Shown piece after piece: positions 14,628 through 23,403 of a stretch of 36,157 nucleotides of DNA. The position numbers were made by a program, and so were the translations under genes. Source of the stretch: Chloroflexota bacterium (GTDB lineage: Bacteria; Chloroflexota; Anaerolineae; Anaerolineales; UBA11579). Location: the NCBI GenBank assembly GCA_023485685.1, contig JAMCZK010000033.1, positions 1 through 36,157 on the forward strand, given 5' to 3'. The notes under the pieces were generated by a model. The model was not told where the DNA came from. It searched no databases and saw only the letters and a list, made by a program, of their open reading frames with translations. Every line of letters begins with the position of its first letter. The first letter of the stretch is position 1.

Positions 14628-16970
14628 CTATTTGATCAGTCGATTCAGGAATTGTTGATACCGCTGGGCATTGGGTGGGTTCAGCGCCAGAATGGCGCGC
14701 ACTGCCGCCTTCGCCCCTTCACGATCGCCGGATTCAACGAATAGTTCTCCCACCTTGTTCCATTCCCGGATGGCGTCTTCGCGCTGGCCGTTTTGCTGGT
14801 AATGCTCTGCTAAACGGCGATGCCCGAGTGGATAATCCTGATTCTCGTCTACAAGGTTGCGCAGGAAGTTCCCCGCGTCCTGCTCGCGGCCACGACTGTT
14901 CAATGAAGATAAGTAGTTATCGAGCTCGACATTTGCCTTGGCCGCCTGCCCCAGGCGCAAATTCAGCTGGATCAGTTTCAGCCGCGCCATCTCGTCGTTT
15001 GGAGCCATGGTGCGCAATTGTTCGTAAACGCGCAACGCTTTACGCCAATCGAGGCGTTGTAAATCGATGTCGGCCATCTGATGCAGGATCTGCACGTTCC
15101 AACTGGCATCCACATCCGCCCCCTGCGCGAGATGCAAGGCCTTCTCGTAGGTGTCGCGCGCCTCGTCCAATTGTGCCAGCCGGTAATAGACATCAGCGAG
15201 TTCTAAATTCTGGCGTGCGGCTTCCTCAAGGTGGCCGGCAGCAGTCAATTGATCGATGAGGTGGATGCGCGCATCAACATCCAGTGGAGAGATTGAAACG
15301 ATGCGCTCGTACGTCTGAGTAGCCCGGTCGCTCTCGCCGCGGGCGGAGTAGACACGCGCCACAGTAGAAAGTTTTTCGATGGCTTGCTGAGGGCGATCAT
15401 TCATCAGGAGCAGCTCGCCCATATGAATGTGCAAAGGTAGGTAACTCGGCGAGAATTCCAAGGCGGCGTACGCCTCTTCCATGGCGGTGCGCAAATAGCC
15501 TTCATGGGAAATTTGGTTAATGCGCGCCAGGGCATCCACCAGGCGACCGCTGTTTGCGTTGGTCAGGATATCCGCAATGGGAATGGGAACCGCTCCATTG
15601 GGCGTGCCTGGCAACTGGCCGCGGGCTTCATTAACGCCAGTGCGCCAATTGGGTCGCATCAGCAGATGACGTATATTCTCGCAGAGAAGTTTAATTTCGT
15701 TCTCGTTCGTGGATTGCGCGGTTGCGGCTATCAAGGGTTCATAAGCGGCCCGCAAGGCCTCTGCCTTGTCCTCGGGCAGTACGGACGAATCCGCAATTTT
15801 CAACGCCTGCAAATATTCAGTGACCGCTTCCGGGTAGCGTTCCTGTTCGAGATGGTGATCCCCCAAAAGCAGATTGGCCGCCAGCGCGAAATCTGCGTGC
15901 TTTACCGCATATTGAAAGCTGCGTTGGGCGCTTTCGCTACGCCCCTCGTTGGAAAGCAGTACGCCGAGATTGAAATGAGCCGCGGGATGATCCAGGCCGG
16001 CGTCAATGGCTGCCTTCAATTCCTCAGCGGATTCCTTCAGCTTGTTCTCCGTTTGTAGTGCGATCGTCCGGCTCAAATGGCGGAGGATGGCGGTTTCATC
16101 GAAGCCGCGGGTCAGCAACCCGTCGGAGACCGCCCGGGCGATTGAGCGCAGCGAGGCAGTTTTACGAGCGGGTTCTGGCTCCCTTGGGGAAAGATCGAAA
16201 AGCATATTGGCCAAGATCTGGAGAGATCTCTGGGTAGCTTCTTCAATGGGGTCCGGCCCTGCTTCGAATTCAGGCAATGGGACTTTACGAGTCAATTTAC
16301 CTTTGCCCGCTAGCAAACGGAGGGAGCCGCTTACCCCGCCTTGGCGCACGGGTTTCGGCAGAGGCTTGTGGGCTTGAAGCATAGCCACGGCTTCCTGGGC
16401 TTCTTTGTTCTTCGGATTCAAGTTCAGCGCATGTTCTCCACTCCTGAGAGCTTCATCCTGCATCCCGGCATGTTGCTGCAACGCGGCGACAGCGATGTAT
16501 TCAGTAATGGCTTGTGGAGTTCTTCCCAGTTTCTCATACACAAGGGCAAGCTTGGCATGCGCATCGATATGATCCGGTTCCAGGCGGATCACACGCGTCC
16601 AATTGTTGATGGCTTTATCGGCATCTCTGAGTTTCAGATGGAGTTCGGCAGCCTGCATGGAATACTTGACCGCTTCATCGATCCGGCCGGTCTGCTTGTA
16701 AATCTGCGCTGTCTTCTCAGGAGGTAACGGATCTTCGGGTGAAAGGCGAGCCGCCCGGCGATACAGGTCTAAGGCTTGCTCGAGGTTGCCCAGTTCCAAG
16801 TGAGCTAGAGCCAGGCTATTCAGCGTAGGCGCGTTATCGGGAAATTCAGCCAGGGCACGGCTGTAATGCTCCACAGCCTCCTGCCATCTGCCCTCCCAGG
16901 CAGCCGAGTGACCCTGGTTCATCGACCGGCGAAATAAATCCTCGTTGCCAAGCGGTGATAGAGTTACCAT
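14628..16970 (-). CDS. Large TPR-repeat protein
   Basis: A 780-residue soluble protein built almost entirely of tetratricopeptide repeats. Examples are AVEHYSRALAEFPDNAPTL, ALDLYRRAARLSPEDPLP, AINNWTRVIRLEPDHIDA, and later ARDTYEKALHLA and ALRVYEQLRTMAPNDEMA. TPR proteins serve as protein-protein scaffolds; no catalytic domain, signal peptide or membrane segment is seen. A basic low-complexity linker lies near residues 205-240. The start overlaps the stop of the alpha/beta hydrolase by 1 nt (TAATG), and that gene follows polA by 20 nt, so the three are likely cotranscribed. No specific partner can be named. Confidence 0.9.
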   Translation of the reverse strand: MVTLSPLGNEDLFRRSMNQGHSAAWEGRWQEAVEHYSRALAEFPDNAPTLNSLALAHLELGNLEQALDLYRRAARLSPEDPLPPEKTAQIYKQTGRIDEAVKYSMQAAELHLKLRDADKAINNWTRVIRLEPDHIDAHAKLALVYEKLGRTPQAITEYIAVAALQQHAGMQDEALRSGEHALNLNPKNKEAQEAVAMLQAHKPLPKPVRQGGVSGSLRLLAGKGKLTRKVPLPEFEAGPDPIEEATQRSLQILANMLFDLSPREPEPARKTASLRSIARAVSDGLLTRGFDETAILRHLSRTIALQTENKLKESAEELKAAIDAGLDHPAAHFNLGVLLSNEGRSESAQRSFQYAVKHADFALAANLLLGDHHLEQERYPEAVTEYLQALKIADSSVLPEDKAEALRAAYEPLIAATAQSTNENEIKLLCENIRHLLMRPNWRTGVNEARGQLPGTPNGAVPIPIADILTNANSGRLVDALARINQISHEGYLRTAMEEAYAALEFSPSYLPLHIHMGELLLMNDRPQQAIEKLSTVARVYSARGESDRATQTYERIVSISPLDVDARIHLIDQLTAAGHLEEAARQNLELADVYYRLAQLDEARDTYEKALHLAQGADVDASWNVQILHQMADIDLQRLDWRKALRVYEQLRTMAPNDEMARLKLIQLNLRLGQAAKANVELDNYLSSLNSRGREQDAGNFLRNLVDENQDYPLGHRRLAEHYQQNGQREDAIREWNKVGELFVESGDREGAKAAVRAILALNPPNAQRYQQFLNRLIK

Positions 16971-17796: not shown

Positions 17797-20598
17797 TTAG
17801 ACTTCAATCACCTGCATCTGCCCCCAATTCTTGCCTACTTTCACCTCAGTCTGCAAGGGAACCTTAAGCTGATAAGCAGAACCCATTTCCCGGCTGACGA
17901 TCTTGGTGGTCTCATCCAATTCGTCTTCGGGAACTTCGAGGACCAGTTCGTCATGGACTTGAAGCAACATCTGACCCTTTAATTTGGCCTTAGGCAAGGC
18001 GGCGGCCACGCGCAGCATGGCTACTTTCATAATATCGGCAGCGCTCCCTTGGATGGGGCTGTTGATGCATTCTCGTTCCAATCGGTTGCGCAAGATATAG
18101 TTCGTGCCATCTTTGAGGCCGGGGAAGTAACGTCGCCGCCCCAGCAGAGTTTCAACGTATCCCATCTTTTTGGCTTGTTGTTTCGTGTTTTCGATATAAG
18201 CGCGCACGCCAGGGAATTGAGCGAAATAAGCTTTGACGAAATTTTCCGCCTCGGCCAGCGTCAGACCGGTGCCGCGGCTGAGGCCAAAGGGGCTCATCCC
18301 GTAGATGAGGCCGAAATTCACGGCCTTGGCATTGCGACGCTGTTCACCGGTCACCTGGCTGAGCTGGATGCCTAGGATACTGGCGGCCGTGGTGGCATGG
18401 ATGTCTTGTCCATCCCGAAAGGCTTTCAACATGGCTTCATCATTGGCGATGTGCGCCACGATACGTAATTCAACCTGGGAGTAATCCACGCCCAACAGAA
18501 GATTTCCAGGCGAGGCGATAAAGGCCCTGCGCACTTTGCGGCCCAGATCGGTGCGGATTGGGATGTTTTGCAAATTCGGCTCGCTGGACGCGATGCGCCC
18601 GGTCACGGTGCCAGCCTGGTTGTACGAGGTGTGGACTCGCCCGGTTTGCGGGTTCACTTCGATGGGGAGCGCATCCACATAAGTCGATTTCAGCTTCGAC
18701 AATTCGCGGTAATCCAGAAGCCAGGCGACAACCGGATGCGCTTCGCGCATGGAATCCAGGATATCGGCGGCTGTAGAGTAGGAACCGCCGGCAGTCTTGC
18801 GCACGCCATCGGGCGGTGGGATCTTGAGCCGGTCGAAGAGGGCATGGGAGAGCTGTTGTGGAGAGTTAAGATTGAACTCCTCCCCCACCTGCTGATAAAC
18901 CTGTTGGGCAATCTGCGCCAAATCCTGGTCCAGTTCTTGAGACATTTCATGCAGAAAGTCGGTGTCCAGCGAAATGCCCTTCATTTCCATTTTGGCCAAC
19001 ACAGGGACCAATGGCATTTCGATTTCATTGAACAGCCTGTCGGCATTTTCCTCGCGGATGCGCTTATACAAGATGGGCTTTAGACGCAGCACCACCTCGG
19101 CATCAGCAGCCGCGTAGGCGCCGGCTTTTTCGATGGGCACTTGGGCCATGGTGATTTGCTTACGGCCTCTGCCAAGCAAGTCTTCGATCTCAATCATCTG
19201 CTGGTTCAGCCGTGCCCAAACAAGGCTCTTGAGGCCCAGGTTGCGTGAGGAAGAATCCCCTACCCATTCCGCGATCATGCTGTCAAAGGCAAGCGGTACT
19301 GTTTCCAATCCGTGACGCGCCAACATCACGTAATCGAAGCTGAGATTGTGGCCCAGCTTGGGGATCTTCGGATCGGTGAAAGGCCCGCGCAAGGCCTTGG
19401 TCACGTCTTCCAGCGCGAGTTGACGCCCCAGCTTTGGATCGTGGCCGATGGGGATGTAATAGCCCATGCCGGGTTCGACTGATATCGAAATACCGACGAT
19501 TTCAGACCGCATAGGGTTGGTGCCGGTAGTCTCGACATCAAATGAGATAGCGTTGGCGCCTGCCAGTACCTCAGCCAGCTCAGCCAAGGCTTGAGGAGTA
19601 TCGACGATGACCGGCTCGACATCCATTCCTGGCGCAGGGAATTGGGTTCCCGCTTCGGCGGGGAACAACCCCAGTTGGGCGCCGCTGGCAGGCTCGTGCG
19701 GAACACCAAGGAGTTCTATAACTGTATGGAGCCGTTTCATCAGAGAGCGAAATTCCAGTTGACGGAACAGCTCTTCTACGGCGCCGGGCTTGAAATCGTT
19801 GGTGAGGGCCTTTTGGAGGTCAAATTCGATTTCGAGATCGGTGACAATGCGGGACAATTTTTGGCTGAGTTCGGCTTTGGCGCGGCCATCCTGGAATTTT
19901 TGTTTTTGTGCCGGCTTCAATTCGTCCAGATGCTCATAAATACCTTCCAGGGTCTTATATTTTTCCAGCAGAGTGGCCGCGGTCTTTTCGCCGATGCCGG
20001 CAATCCCAGGGATGTTATCGGATTTGTCGCCAGTCATGGCTTTGTAATCCACAACTTGCTCCGGATACACGCCGAGAAAATCGTGCACGTCCTTAGGCAG
20101 GTAGTCCTTGGAATCGGCGAGTTGCTTGCCGGGCAGGCTGACCATGATGCGCTTGTCCACTAATTGCAGGAGGTCTTTATCGCCGGTAATGATCTTGACC
20201 CCCATCCCATCTTTGGAAATCTTTTTTGCTACGCTGCCCAACACGTCATCCGCTTCGTAACCATCTATTTCCAACCGCGGGATGCCAAAGGCATCCACCA
20301 GTTCACGGATGCGTTCGATTTGGGCGCGCAGATCGTCGGGCATCTTCTCGCGGGTGCCTTTGTAGGCGGGATACAAATCATCGCGAAAAGTGCGCCCGCG
20401 ATCGAAAGCCACCGCCATGTAATCAGGCCGCTCCTGTTCAAGCAGGCGCAACAAAACGGAGGTGAAACCAAAGATGCCTGCAGTGGGTTCTCCAGCGGTG
20501 GTTACCCAACGACTGGTACCGGCGCCCGCACCAGTCAGCGCAAAATAGGTGCGATAAGCGAGAGCATGGCCGTCAATCAAATAAAGCGTCGGAGGCAT
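17797..20598 (-). CDS. polA: DNA polymerase I
   Basis: A 933-residue family A polymerase with all three domains. The 5'-3' exonuclease (about 1-300) includes YLIDGHALAYR, DGYEADD and GDKSDNIPGI. The 3'-5' proofreading domain (about 330-530) keeps its metal ligands: FDVETTG, LGHNLSFD and YAAADAEVV. The polymerase domain has motif A VDYSQVELR, motif B RRNAKAVNFGLIYGMS and motif C QVHDELVLE. It fills gaps and removes RNA primers during replication and repair. The upstream -10 TAAAAT ends 7 nt before the ATG with no Shine-Dalgarno, so the message is probably leaderless. Intact proofreading is worth noting because several thermophile Pol I enzymes have lost it. Confidence 0.98.
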   Translation of the reverse strand: MPPTLYLIDGHALAYRTYFALTGAGAGTSRWVTTAGEPTAGIFGFTSVLLRLLEQERPDYMAVAFDRGRTFRDDLYPAYKGTREKMPDDLRAQIERIRELVDAFGIPRLEIDGYEADDVLGSVAKKISKDGMGVKIITGDKDLLQLVDKRIMVSLPGKQLADSKDYLPKDVHDFLGVYPEQVVDYKAMTGDKSDNIPGIAGIGEKTAATLLEKYKTLEGIYEHLDELKPAQKQKFQDGRAKAELSQKLSRIVTDLEIEFDLQKALTNDFKPGAVEELFRQLEFRSLMKRLHTVIELLGVPHEPASGAQLGLFPAEAGTQFPAPGMDVEPVIVDTPQALAELAEVLAGANAISFDVETTGTNPMRSEIVGISISVEPGMGYYIPIGHDPKLGRQLALEDVTKALRGPFTDPKIPKLGHNLSFDYVMLARHGLETVPLAFDSMIAEWVGDSSSRNLGLKSLVWARLNQQMIEIEDLLGRGRKQITMAQVPIEKAGAYAAADAEVVLRLKPILYKRIREENADRLFNEIEMPLVPVLAKMEMKGISLDTDFLHEMSQELDQDLAQIAQQVYQQVGEEFNLNSPQQLSHALFDRLKIPPPDGVRKTAGGSYSTAADILDSMREAHPVVAWLLDYRELSKLKSTYVDALPIEVNPQTGRVHTSYNQAGTVTGRIASSEPNLQNIPIRTDLGRKVRRAFIASPGNLLLGVDYSQVELRIVAHIANDEAMLKAFRDGQDIHATTAASILGIQLSQVTGEQRRNAKAVNFGLIYGMSPFGLSRGTGLTLAEAENFVKAYFAQFPGVRAYIENTKQQAKKMGYVETLLGRRRYFPGLKDGTNYILRNRLERECINSPIQGSAADIMKVAMLRVAAALPKAKLKGQMLLQVHDELVLEVPEDELDETTKIVSREMGSAYQLKVPLQTEVKVGKNWGQMQVIEV

Positions 20599-20630: not shown

Positions 20631-20656
20631 AAAAGCAAAGGCGAGGATACCTCGCC
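20631..20656 (-). terminator. Terminator between the pseudo-receiver gene and polA
   Basis: On the minus strand GGCGAGG/CCTCGCC pairs around a 3-nt loop, followed by TTTGCTTTTT. It lies 24 nt past the stop of the upstream gene and isolates polA. Confidence 0.85.
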
Positions 20657-20680
20657 CTTAAGCATTCGATGCAACCTTTG

Positions 20681-22084
20681 TCAGAGTGCTACCCCTTGAG
20701 ATTTGCGCGTTTGATGAATGAAATCAGCTACTTGCGCAGGAGTTGGCGGTGAACCGCTAGTAACCAAGTATCCGGGCGCCCAAAATTGGCCCGAGGGGTT
20801 TTCTCGGCCTAGACGCGGGAATTCTTCGAAGATGCGGGTTGAAAGATGTCTGTCCATTGTCCGCGCTATGCTCTCGGGCGTCGCCTCGGAGGAAACTAAA
20901 ACTGACCATTGCAAGAATTCTGGCTGCACTGATTGTTCATCCAACTTCCAGGCAAAAGCCAGGCAAAGTTCAGGTAGCCATTCGGCCAACCTGGAGGCCA
21001 GATCGCCGGCCAGCTGATGCCTGGGGAGGCGCGGGATCAGGACAAAAGAATAGCGAAGTTGAGGTCCAGTTGCGGAAAATGCAGCCTGGCGGCTGGGTGA
21101 GCTGTAAGCTTGCTCTGCTCCAGCAGGAATTTCAGGAACGCCCGCGGAAACCGGCTCGCGTTCCGGGATCTCAGACGCTGGCTCCCCCACCCGCGGCCCC
21201 TCCTGCAGGCGAGTCATTCCCGTTTGTTGGGCCCGTACCTCTTGCATTCCTTCCCTATCGGTCAACACCTCTTCGGGCGCGGTGGCCAGCGCCCTGGCCA
21301 GTTCCGCCACGTGAGCGCGCATCTGGCTGAATGGCATTTGCGCATCGAAAACTAGCGCCAACCTGTATTCCCCGCCGAGATTGGTGGCGTAGAGCATATA
21401 GTCCGCGCTGGTGGCGGAAAGATGAATAAAGCGTGCCAAGTCGGTTCCATCTCCGCTGGCGACTTGCTCTGCCACAGTATCGGCTAACTCGTCGGCAGCT
21501 TGCTTGGGCAGCTCTCCGGCATAAGCCCACACCTGCTCACCGCGTGTGATTAGTGCGGCCTGGGAGGAGGATTCCAGCGACAAGCGCGTTAAATAACGCG
21601 CAGCCTGCGAGACGTCCTGCAGCCATTCTGGAGCCGGAATGGATTCGTGTTCTGTCACGGGTAGCCTAAGGGGGCTGGTCGGCTTTCCGTAAACTTTGCG
21701 GTTCGCCGTCTCCTGAGGAACCAAGGGACCGAAAAGTTGTTCGATCGCCGCCACCAGGTCAGGCAGATAGAACGGGCTAGGCAATACCGCGTTGGCTTCC
21801 AACTGCGCCAATTGGGGATTGTTGGGATTTTCCTCAGCCGGAACGACAATCAGGCGCGTTTGCGGCGCGTGGTTGCGAAGCTCGGAAATAAATGCAGGGA
21901 AATCCTGCAGCCCTAAGTCGGCGTCCAGAATCGTGAGCGCCAACGCTTCCTTTTGGGCCATTTGCATGGCCTGAACAGGGTCGGTGACCAGCAGCGGAGT
22001 AAAGCCTCCGGTATCCTCGAGTAGTTGACGGATCAGCTCTCCGAAACCGGGGCTCGCGGTAAGGATGAGAACCTTTTTCAGCAT
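20681..22084 (-). CDS. Pseudo-receiver / roadblock / IS200-transposase-like fusion protein
   Basis: A 467-residue protein with three parts. Residues 4-118 look like a response-regulator receiver: Asp54 (TILDADL) is kept, but the switch Thr is Pro82 and the KPF Lys is Ser103. Residues about 155-275 resemble a roadblock/LC7 domain. After a Pro/Glu-rich linker, residues 344-465 match the IS200/IS605 Y1 transposase fold: YSFVLIPRLPRHQLAGDLA, RIFEEFPRL and QFWAPGYLVTS. There the HUH histidines are replaced (F390-L391-Q392) and the catalytic Tyr is Phe455, so it should not cut DNA. A DNA-binding or signalling role is inferred. It has its own -10 box and ribosome site, and a terminator after it. Confidence 0.8.
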   Translation of the reverse strand: MLKKVLILTASPGFGELIRQLLEDTGGFTPLLVTDPVQAMQMAQKEALALTILDADLGLQDFPAFISELRNHAPQTRLIVVPAEENPNNPQLAQLEANAVLPSPFYLPDLVAAIEQLFGPLVPQETANRKVYGKPTSPLRLPVTEHESIPAPEWLQDVSQAARYLTRLSLESSSQAALITRGEQVWAYAGELPKQAADELADTVAEQVASGDGTDLARFIHLSATSADYMLYATNLGGEYRLALVFDAQMPFSQMRAHVAELARALATAPEEVLTDREGMQEVRAQQTGMTRLQEGPRVGEPASEIPEREPVSAGVPEIPAGAEQAYSSPSRQAAFSATGPQLRYSFVLIPRLPRHQLAGDLASRLAEWLPELCLAFAWKLDEQSVQPEFLQWSVLVSSEATPESIARTMDRHLSTRIFEEFPRLGRENPSGQFWAPGYLVTSGSPPTPAQVADFIHQTRKSQGVAL

Positions 22085-22149: not shown

Positions 22150-23403
22150 TCATTTCTTGGCAGTTTTTTTCTTTCTCTTGGACAAGAACCTTTTAACGCG
22201 GTCAATCAACCGCTGCAAAGGCCGTGCCAACGGGACGATTTCAGGTTCCTTCATTTTTTCGACCTGCGGCCAGGGATCCAAATCCAGCATCTTGCGCAGA
22301 GTATAGGTTGCAAAGAGCTGCAAGCTTGCAAGCACCGGCGCCGCCAACAGCAAGCCGACAACACCCAATAGATTGGCCGCAATCAGCGCCGTCACCAGAA
22401 CAGCCGCCGGGTGAACACCCAGGGCGCGGCCATAGATACGCGGGGTGACGATATTGTCGAAGGTCTGGTCAAGCAGGATGGCGGCCACCGCAACAATGAT
22501 GGCATAAGTCATCTCAGGTTGTATGTTCAGGTAATTGGCATCTTGGAAGAGCGCGACCAGGAAGACTGTAATATACATGGCCAGCGAGCCAACATAAGGG
22601 ACGAATTTCGCAAAGCCGGTAAGGAAGGCTATCGCCAGTGCGTAACGCACACCGAACAGGCTCATCAAAATGAAGGAAGTGATAGTGATGAGTGTCACCA
22701 AAAGAAGTTGGCCACGCAAAAAGGAGTTCCAGGTACGCCCCAGCTCCCTGCCCATGCGGCGGATATCGGCGTCGTGGCCTGGTAATTCGGCATTCCGGAA
22801 GAAATCAGGAGCGCTGCCCATCTCGGTGAGTGTGAGATAGGAGATGATGAAGATAAATAGTGCCCAGCCAATCGTAGTAACCGTGGAAGTGGCCAGGGCT
22901 GTAATCAAGCTGCCTGCTTGCCCTAAGGCTGGTTGGATAGCAGAAAGAAGCTGCTGGCTGATAGCGGTGAAGTCCATGCCGAATTCGTCTAACAGCAAGC
23001 GCTCCAGGCCAGCAAAATCCACCTCGAATGGACCGATCTGGACTGCCTGAGTTGACAGGCTGCGAGCCAACTCTGGTAACCCCGTAAGGAAGGTTTGCAA
23101 AACACGTACCAGGTTATCCAACTGGTCCACGATAGCAAAGCCGGCTACCGTGCTCAACAGCACGATGATTAGGAGAAACGCTATAAAGATGAGATTGACG
23201 GCAGCTCGCCAAGAAAGCTGCATGCTAACGCTGAGGCGTCTGGCTAGTGGGTTTAGCAAATAAGTGAGGATGAAGGCAAGCAACAGCGGGCCGATAAAGC
23301 TGCTGAAGCGCACCAAGATGGCGGCTACAATAGCCACCATCGTGAAGCCGGCAATCAGCTTGGTGGTGTTCGACCAGTGGGGAGAAGTTGCAGGCTTAGG
23401 CAT
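22150..23403 (-). CDS. AI-2E family transporter (PerM/YdiK type)
   Basis: A 417-residue multi-pass membrane protein with about eight hydrophobic segments. Family signatures are LLAFILTYLLNPLARRL near the start, FAKFVPYVGSLA, the C-terminal IYGRALGVHPAAVLVTALIAANLLGVVGLLLAAPVLA, and a basic cytoplasmic tail ending in KKKKTAKK. Members export small molecules such as autoinducer-2 or act as ion antiporters; the substrate here is unknown. A ribosome-site-like AAGGGG stands 5 nt before the ATG. It lies 73 nt downstream of the ccmD-like gene, but no operon link is apparent. Confidence 0.9.
   Translation of the reverse strand: MPKPATSPHWSNTTKLIAGFTMVAIVAAILVRFSSFIGPLLLAFILTYLLNPLARRLSVSMQLSWRAAVNLIFIAFLLIIVLLSTVAGFAIVDQLDNLVRVLQTFLTGLPELARSLSTQAVQIGPFEVDFAGLERLLLDEFGMDFTAISQQLLSAIQPALGQAGSLITALATSTVTTIGWALFIFIISYLTLTEMGSAPDFFRNAELPGHDADIRRMGRELGRTWNSFLRGQLLLVTLITITSFILMSLFGVRYALAIAFLTGFAKFVPYVGSLAMYITVFLVALFQDANYLNIQPEMTYAIIVAVAAILLDQTFDNIVTPRIYGRALGVHPAAVLVTALIAANLLGVVGLLLAAPVLASLQLFATYTLRKMLDLDPWPQVEKMKEPEIVPLARPLQRLIDRVKRFLSKRKKKTAKK

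Follow-up and report, generated by a model that had tools for sequence, protein, structure and literature searches.

Organization of the Locus

The window is the whole stretch of DNA that was analysed, 36,157 nucleotides of contig JAMCZK010000033.1 from a Chloroflexota bacterium of the order Anaerolineales. On its minus strand, the window contains a gene for a protein of 467 amino acids, which begins with ATG and has no internal stops; the intact frame given in the preliminary description is thus confirmed. The anatomy of the protein is near certain: a degenerate receiver, a roadblock-like middle part, and a catalytically dead Y1 (TnpA) end (Table 1). The linker preceding the Y1 domain is under weak constraint, and its size varies among family members. 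A promoter of its own had also been claimed for the gene; no sigma-70-like sites were found, against 0.9 expected by chance, and this claim is not upheld.

Table 1. Features of the 467-aa gene and its surroundings, in positions of the window.
Feature	Position	Strand	Remark
Whole gene: receiver, roadblock, linker, Y1 (467 aa)	20681..22084	minus	
Degenerate receiver domain, aa 1-121	21722..22084	minus	
Asp54 codon of the receiver	21923-21925	minus	
Roadblock/LC7-like domain, aa ~150-275	21260..21637	minus	profile evidence
Variable linker, aa 276-338	21071..21259	minus	
Catalytically dead IS200/IS605-type Y1 (TnpA) domain, aa 342-458	20711..21061	minus	
F390-L391-Q392, at the HUH site	20909..20917	minus	alignment
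Phe455, at the catalytic Tyr site	20720..20722	minus	alignment
Terminator-like hairpin in the gene-polA gap, 11-bp stem and T-rich tail	20636..20660	minus	
polA, full-length DNA polymerase I (5'-3' exo, 3'-5' exo, pol)	17797..20598	minus	conserved downstream neighbour
780-aa TPR-repeat protein	14628..16970	minus	next but one after polA
AI-2E family transporter gene	22150..23403	minus	upstream of the 467-aa gene

The C-Terminal Domain Descends from TnpA

The C-terminal domain belongs by descent to TnpA (Y1 transposase) stock. The Pfam model Y1_Tnp (PF01797, curated cutoff 23 bits) matched residues 342-458 with 37.1 bits (E 3.9e-9). The score of the NCBIfam IS200 transposase model NF033573, 38.3 bits, is below the equivalog cutoff of 55, as expected because the domain is a diverged member. 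In a single-sequence alignment the C-terminus paired with ISDra2-type TnpA structures (2fyx/2xo6), a profile built from 24 family members matched solved TnpAs with E=6e-24, and independent TnpA genes from plasmids aligned to the Y1 part at 28-30% identity.

An AlphaFold model of the Y1 part only (pLDDT 85.2, pTM 0.77) matched TnpA structures with an E of 4e-9 and Z scores of 13-15 over 106-124 residues, the value for 2fyx (ISDra2-type) being 15.3; the top-ranked structure not in the TnpA group had a Z of 8, and the RAYT structure 4er8 one of 7.2. The preliminary description had reported that the C-terminus follows the Y1 fold, and the predicted structure is that of TnpA rather than an unrelated fold. 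The whole-protein model, calculated from two sequences only, was mediocre (pLDDT 54); its best Foldseek matches were TnpA, followed by receivers such as Spo0F.

Loss of Catalytic Residues and Newly Conserved Positions

In alignments to 2fyx/2xo6 and canonical TnpAs, the HUH motif is replaced by F390-L391-Q392 and the catalytic Tyr of the last helix by Phe455, both as read from the sequence beforehand. The Gln at Tyr+4 of TnpA acts as the third metal ligand (PMC6006769); this position is Thr459 in the 467-aa protein, whose Y1 domain lacks all three catalytic or metal-binding features. HUH and Tyr occur together in none of the 44 distinct family Y1 domains, Tyr is kept without HUH in 15/44, and most stand-alone TnpAs retrieved by the same family profile have HUH with Tyr. 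One family member (L012:924-2417, minus strand) keeps H-L-H and has Phe at the Tyr site; its Y1 domain had the top score (61 bits) among the fused members scanned. Two stand-alone Y1-like ORFs from other Chloroflexota, L110 (136 aa) and L116 (156 aa), have R-V-Y at the HUH site and are possibly further inactive TnpAs.

The dead domains have also lost canonical basic positions: only 0-7% have K/R at positions 354, 355, 437, and 454, and position 454 is acidic in 84%. The mean net charge of the aligned Y1 domain falls from +5.5 in canonical TnpA to +0.6 in the dead family, and the domain of the 467-aa protein has a net charge of -1 and a pI of 6.3; several family members have a pI near 9-10. Lys/Arg at 352 is retained in 100% of dead members and a basic residue at 411 in 68%. 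Newly conserved in the dead domains are R380, E382, R417, R424, N429-S431-G432, and a C-terminal motif, R460-x-R462-Q463-G464; the 467-aa protein departs from this consensus at two sites (K380 and S462). Taken together, the lost and gained residues suggest that a binding surface was rebuilt, not that the domain is decaying.

Receiver and Roadblock Domains

Pfam Response_reg matched residues 7-115 with an E of 1.1e-7, over the curated cutoff, and Foldseek detected the receiver fold in the whole-protein model. Asp54 is all that is kept of the phosphorylation site: Pro82 takes the place of Thr and Ser103 that of Lys, in agreement with the preliminary description, and the acidic pair is also lost (T9-A10-S11-P12). 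Across the family receivers, Thr is absent, the acidic pair is absent with few exceptions, Asp54 is present in 22/23, and Lys in 11/23. Receiver-roadblock proteins without Y1 from other families (L068, L081, L048) retain more of the site; therefore, from the sequences compared, degeneration of the receiver seems to have taken place inside the Y1-bearing lineage.

The roadblock domain had been named without qualification. The family profile gives a weak match to MglB structures (E 1.7e-3) and one family member matches Robl_LC7 at 1.1e-4, but in the 467-aa protein itself this part falls below Pfam detection. The corresponding stretch of the structural model has a pLDDT below 50, too poor to inform. 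Family-wide, the roadblock-like domain is the part richest in invariant residues.

Distribution, Phylogeny, and Selection

Homologues were found in 47 of 61 genomes from the same genus, family, and order, and the Y1 part is present in about 41 of the 47 (manual count of the table). Forms without Y1 include L047, L048, and others. In three long forms (L071:1087-3387, L077:1045-3363, and L076:436-2274), a roadblock-like part is followed by a dead Y1 at the C-terminal side, and the N-terminal ~350-480 aa are acidic, low-complexity-looking, and match no Pfam family. One genome that encodes a full-length family gene also has a stand-alone dead Y1 paralogue of 184 aa away from polA (L051:9618-10169, minus strand). 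In its own draft genome, the 467-aa gene is single copy.

A scan of genome contigs yielded one relative only, from an Anaerolineales MAG, because the scan requires near-identical peptides. The class-level search with a whole-protein profile was swamped by ordinary receivers, and its counts were therefore not used. The viral contigs searched contained no relative of the family, and the plasmids searched contained only ordinary TnpAs, which aligned to the C-terminal part; the possibility of a phage- or plasmid-borne family was rejected on these grounds. The sole PADLOC match, to PD-T4-6 (E 2.8e-4), falls on the receiver and was read as ordinary receiver similarity, and a defence gene was likewise rejected.

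In the unrooted Y1 phylogeny, the HUH proteins cluster together (support 100/99), as do 41 of the 44 dead Y1 domains (100/98) in a second group. L059, L027, L045, and the long forms are placed outside both groups on long branches; a single origin of the catalytic loss is therefore not proven. Because HUH transposases are widespread, the active state was taken as the older one. Among close relatives, dN/dS is 0.02-0.11 for the Y1 domain versus 0.17-0.48 for the linker, values indicating that the Y1 domain is under strong purifying selection. The receiver-roadblock-Y1 protein has been kept across the Anaerolineales by vertical inheritance and purifying selection. The preliminary description had taken the C-terminal part for a domesticated transposase; homology, fold, and catalytic loss in every relative strongly support this, and orthology, purifying selection, and the fixed chromosomal place beside polA agree.

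Conserved Linkage to polA

The adjacency to polA noted earlier for this locus is conserved in relatives. In 17/21 wide loci the family gene lies immediately 5' of polA and shares its strand, and in two more it is one gene off; in one of the remaining two polA was not seen, and the other is the locus of the stand-alone Y1 paralogue. Among 29 narrow loci, 25 include the polA start. The family gene and polA are separated by anything from 7 to more than 200 nt; in several relatives the gap measures 7-17 nt, too short for a promoter. Short overlaps of the gene with polA occur in L048 and L072. The gaps of L034, L035, and L042 are filled with short degenerate repeats (GTGA/ACTGT or ATTGTGAATT types) capable of folding back on themselves.

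The linkage to polA lasts where other neighbours differ. A relative of the TPR-repeat protein is found near polA in 13/21 loci, and about half of the loci have the AI-2E family transporter next to the family gene. Other families of the class encode receiver-roadblock-only proteins just upstream of polA (L068, L072, L073, L075, and L081), and long acidic roadblock-Y1 proteins precede polA in L071 and L077. In a polA-anchored survey of about 70 class-level loci, most had no such neighbour. The pairing with polA is near universal among gene carriers of the order and patchy beyond it.

The Hairpin before polA and REP Elements

The terminator proposed in the preliminary description is plausible at this locus, given the stem and T-rich tail of the hairpin; it is not a family trait, since the gaps of several relatives are only 7-17 nt. 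The core of the hairpin (20640-20657) matches REP hairpins of the same genome but without the GTAG foot. Some 20 REP hairpins with a GTAG foot occur in the genome, most of them as inverted pairs (loci L189-L196 and L207-L209), and the paired hairpins are REPIN-like (GTAGGGGCGAGG...CCTCGCC / GGGCGGGG...CCCCGCCCCTAC). No GTAG-footed REP hairpins were found flanking the 467-aa gene, where the footless core is the single copy. The hairpin is missing at the equivalent place in the relatives examined, same genus included, and a copy of its core is present in only one other genome of the genus. The hairpin is probably a REP-like element acting as a terminator. With the hairpin in the gap, the gene and polA could be transcribed separately here, and co-transcription is not assured. 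Recognition of this hairpin by the Y1 domain as its cognate site was also considered, and was rejected because the hairpin is absent from this place in the relatives examined and rare in the genus.

The same genome encodes a Y1/RAYT-like gene with intact HYH (L083:1270-1836, minus strand), flanked by genes that look like those for the alpha and beta subunits of a pyruvate-dehydrogenase-type E1 (subunits named by eye).

Possible Functions of the Protein

Our tentative preference, held with somewhat less than even confidence, is that the 467-aa protein works alongside DNA polymerase I as a dimeric adaptor without catalytic activity; the reasons are the absence of catalysis, the degenerate receiver, the rebuilt Y1 surface, and the constant polA neighbour. 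Roadblock proteins are dimeric in known relatives, and by analogy the protein may dimerize via its roadblock and TnpA-type folds. TnpA itself forms dimers (PMC6006769). The degenerate receiver would no longer be a phospho-switch; its surface would instead serve in docking or regulation. Through its rebuilt surface, the Y1 domain would bind a partner. The likeliest one is DNA polymerase I or its primer-template, at repair sites or on the lagging strand, and such binding would recruit or modulate Pol I. We infer the tie to Pol I from gene order alone, which is vertically inherited within one class. Against the adaptor, most members of the class have Pol I but a polA without such a neighbour, the terminator-like hairpin parts the two genes, and the roadblock assignment comes from weak profile scores. 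That the protein is an ancient, lineage-wide partner or regulator of Pol I in the Anaerolineales, a dead transposase fused to a receiver-roadblock signalling core, is a stronger proposal and an unlikely one; a fold that once found single-stranded hairpins at forks would now position or control the polymerase there.

It is rather doubtful, if by no means far-fetched, that recognition of hairpin or single-stranded nucleic acid, DNA or RNA, survives in the dead Y1 domain and makes it the nucleic-acid-binding output of a signalling protein, for example in polA regulation or in marking hairpins of the lagging-strand template. Hairpin binding is typical of TnpA-type folds, and the retained basic residues at 352 and 411, the new conserved Arg at 380, 417, 424, 460, and 462, the high pI of several members, and the REP-resembling hairpin at the 3' end of the gene are consistent with such a role. 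Weighing against it are the four lost basic positions with the mostly acidic 454, the fall in mean charge and the negative charge of this domain, and the absence of the hairpin from this place in relatives. The output role suggested in the preliminary description is weakened, the more so since the residues conserved in the family differ from the canonical basic ones of TnpA.

Decidedly unlikely is a role of the roadblock and receiver in controlling a small Ras-like GTPase of the MglA type, or some other process, with Y1 as an extra dimerisation module and the polA linkage as frozen gene order. Roadblock and receiver proteins are paired in MglB/RomR systems (PMC4316618), the roadblock is the part richest in invariant residues, and forms without Y1 exist; however, no GTPase gene was seen among the conserved neighbours, and the polA linkage outlasts changes of the other neighbours.

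A decaying, functionless fusion (pseudogene or annotation artefact) would account for catalytic residues that are lost and variable between members, but frames open in many genomes, low Y1 dN/dS, invariant non-catalytic residues, and a conserved place make it highly improbable, and profile, fold, selection, and orthology led us to reject it together with chance resemblance. Equally slim are the chances that the protein is an IS200/IS605 or REP-associated transposase still working through an altered active site: the fold, the Tyr of some members, and H-L-H in L012 (though with Phe for Tyr) would fit, but no member combines HUH and Tyr, the gene is single copy in its genome, its orthologous position is conserved, and it is fused to signalling domains.

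Comparison with Known Systems

The family is an exapted Y1 transposase that has lost catalysis and become part of a signalling protein, and is apparently undescribed in the open literature. Our search, which covered mainly openly available papers, found no earlier description of such a fusion or dead TnpA exaptation. A survey of RAYTs excluded overlong proteins, taking them for fusions or annotation errors (PMC6006769), and a family like this one would therefore be invisible there. Unlike the RAYTs, such a widespread family would retain the TnpA fold yet discard its chemistry; the dead fold is joined to signalling domains, and gene order links it to an enzyme at the core of replication and repair. 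The family offers a testable candidate for an accessory factor of Pol I in the little-studied phylum Chloroflexota, and a warning that "transposase" matches in Anaerolineae may be host genes.

With IS200/IS605 TnpA (ISDra2, IS608), the family shares a homologous domain, the same order of secondary structures, and the W-x-x-(G)Y and FP-L core motifs. It differs in lacking HUH, the catalytic Tyr, the Gln, and most canonical basic positions, in the fusion to receiver and roadblock domains, and in the extra C-terminal R-x-R-Q-G; it is also not mobile, with one copy in the draft genome and a fixed place beside polA in relatives. Like RAYT/TnpAREP (E. coli, 4er8), it has the Y1 fold and is a TnpA-derived single-copy chromosomal gene. 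RAYTs are domesticated Y1 proteins whose HUH and Tyr are intact and which process REP hairpins (PMC6006769), whereas the family Y1 is catalytically dead, with HUH and the Y---NP motif absent, and its predicted structure appears nearer to IS200/IS605 TnpA than to RAYT (Z 15.3 vs. 7.2).

As in MglB-type roadblock/LC7 proteins and their RomR-type receiver partners, a roadblock-like part and a receiver are combined in bacterial signalling; here, in contrast, both are in one chain, a dead Y1 is added, and the neighbour is polA, not an MglA gene. TldR proteins are nuclease-dead derivatives of TnpB, an RNA-guided nuclease unrelated to TnpA, and are a case of an inactivated IS200/IS605 protein exapted for a host role. 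The present family resembles TldR in being such an inactivated protein in a host role, but it derives from TnpA, not from TnpB.
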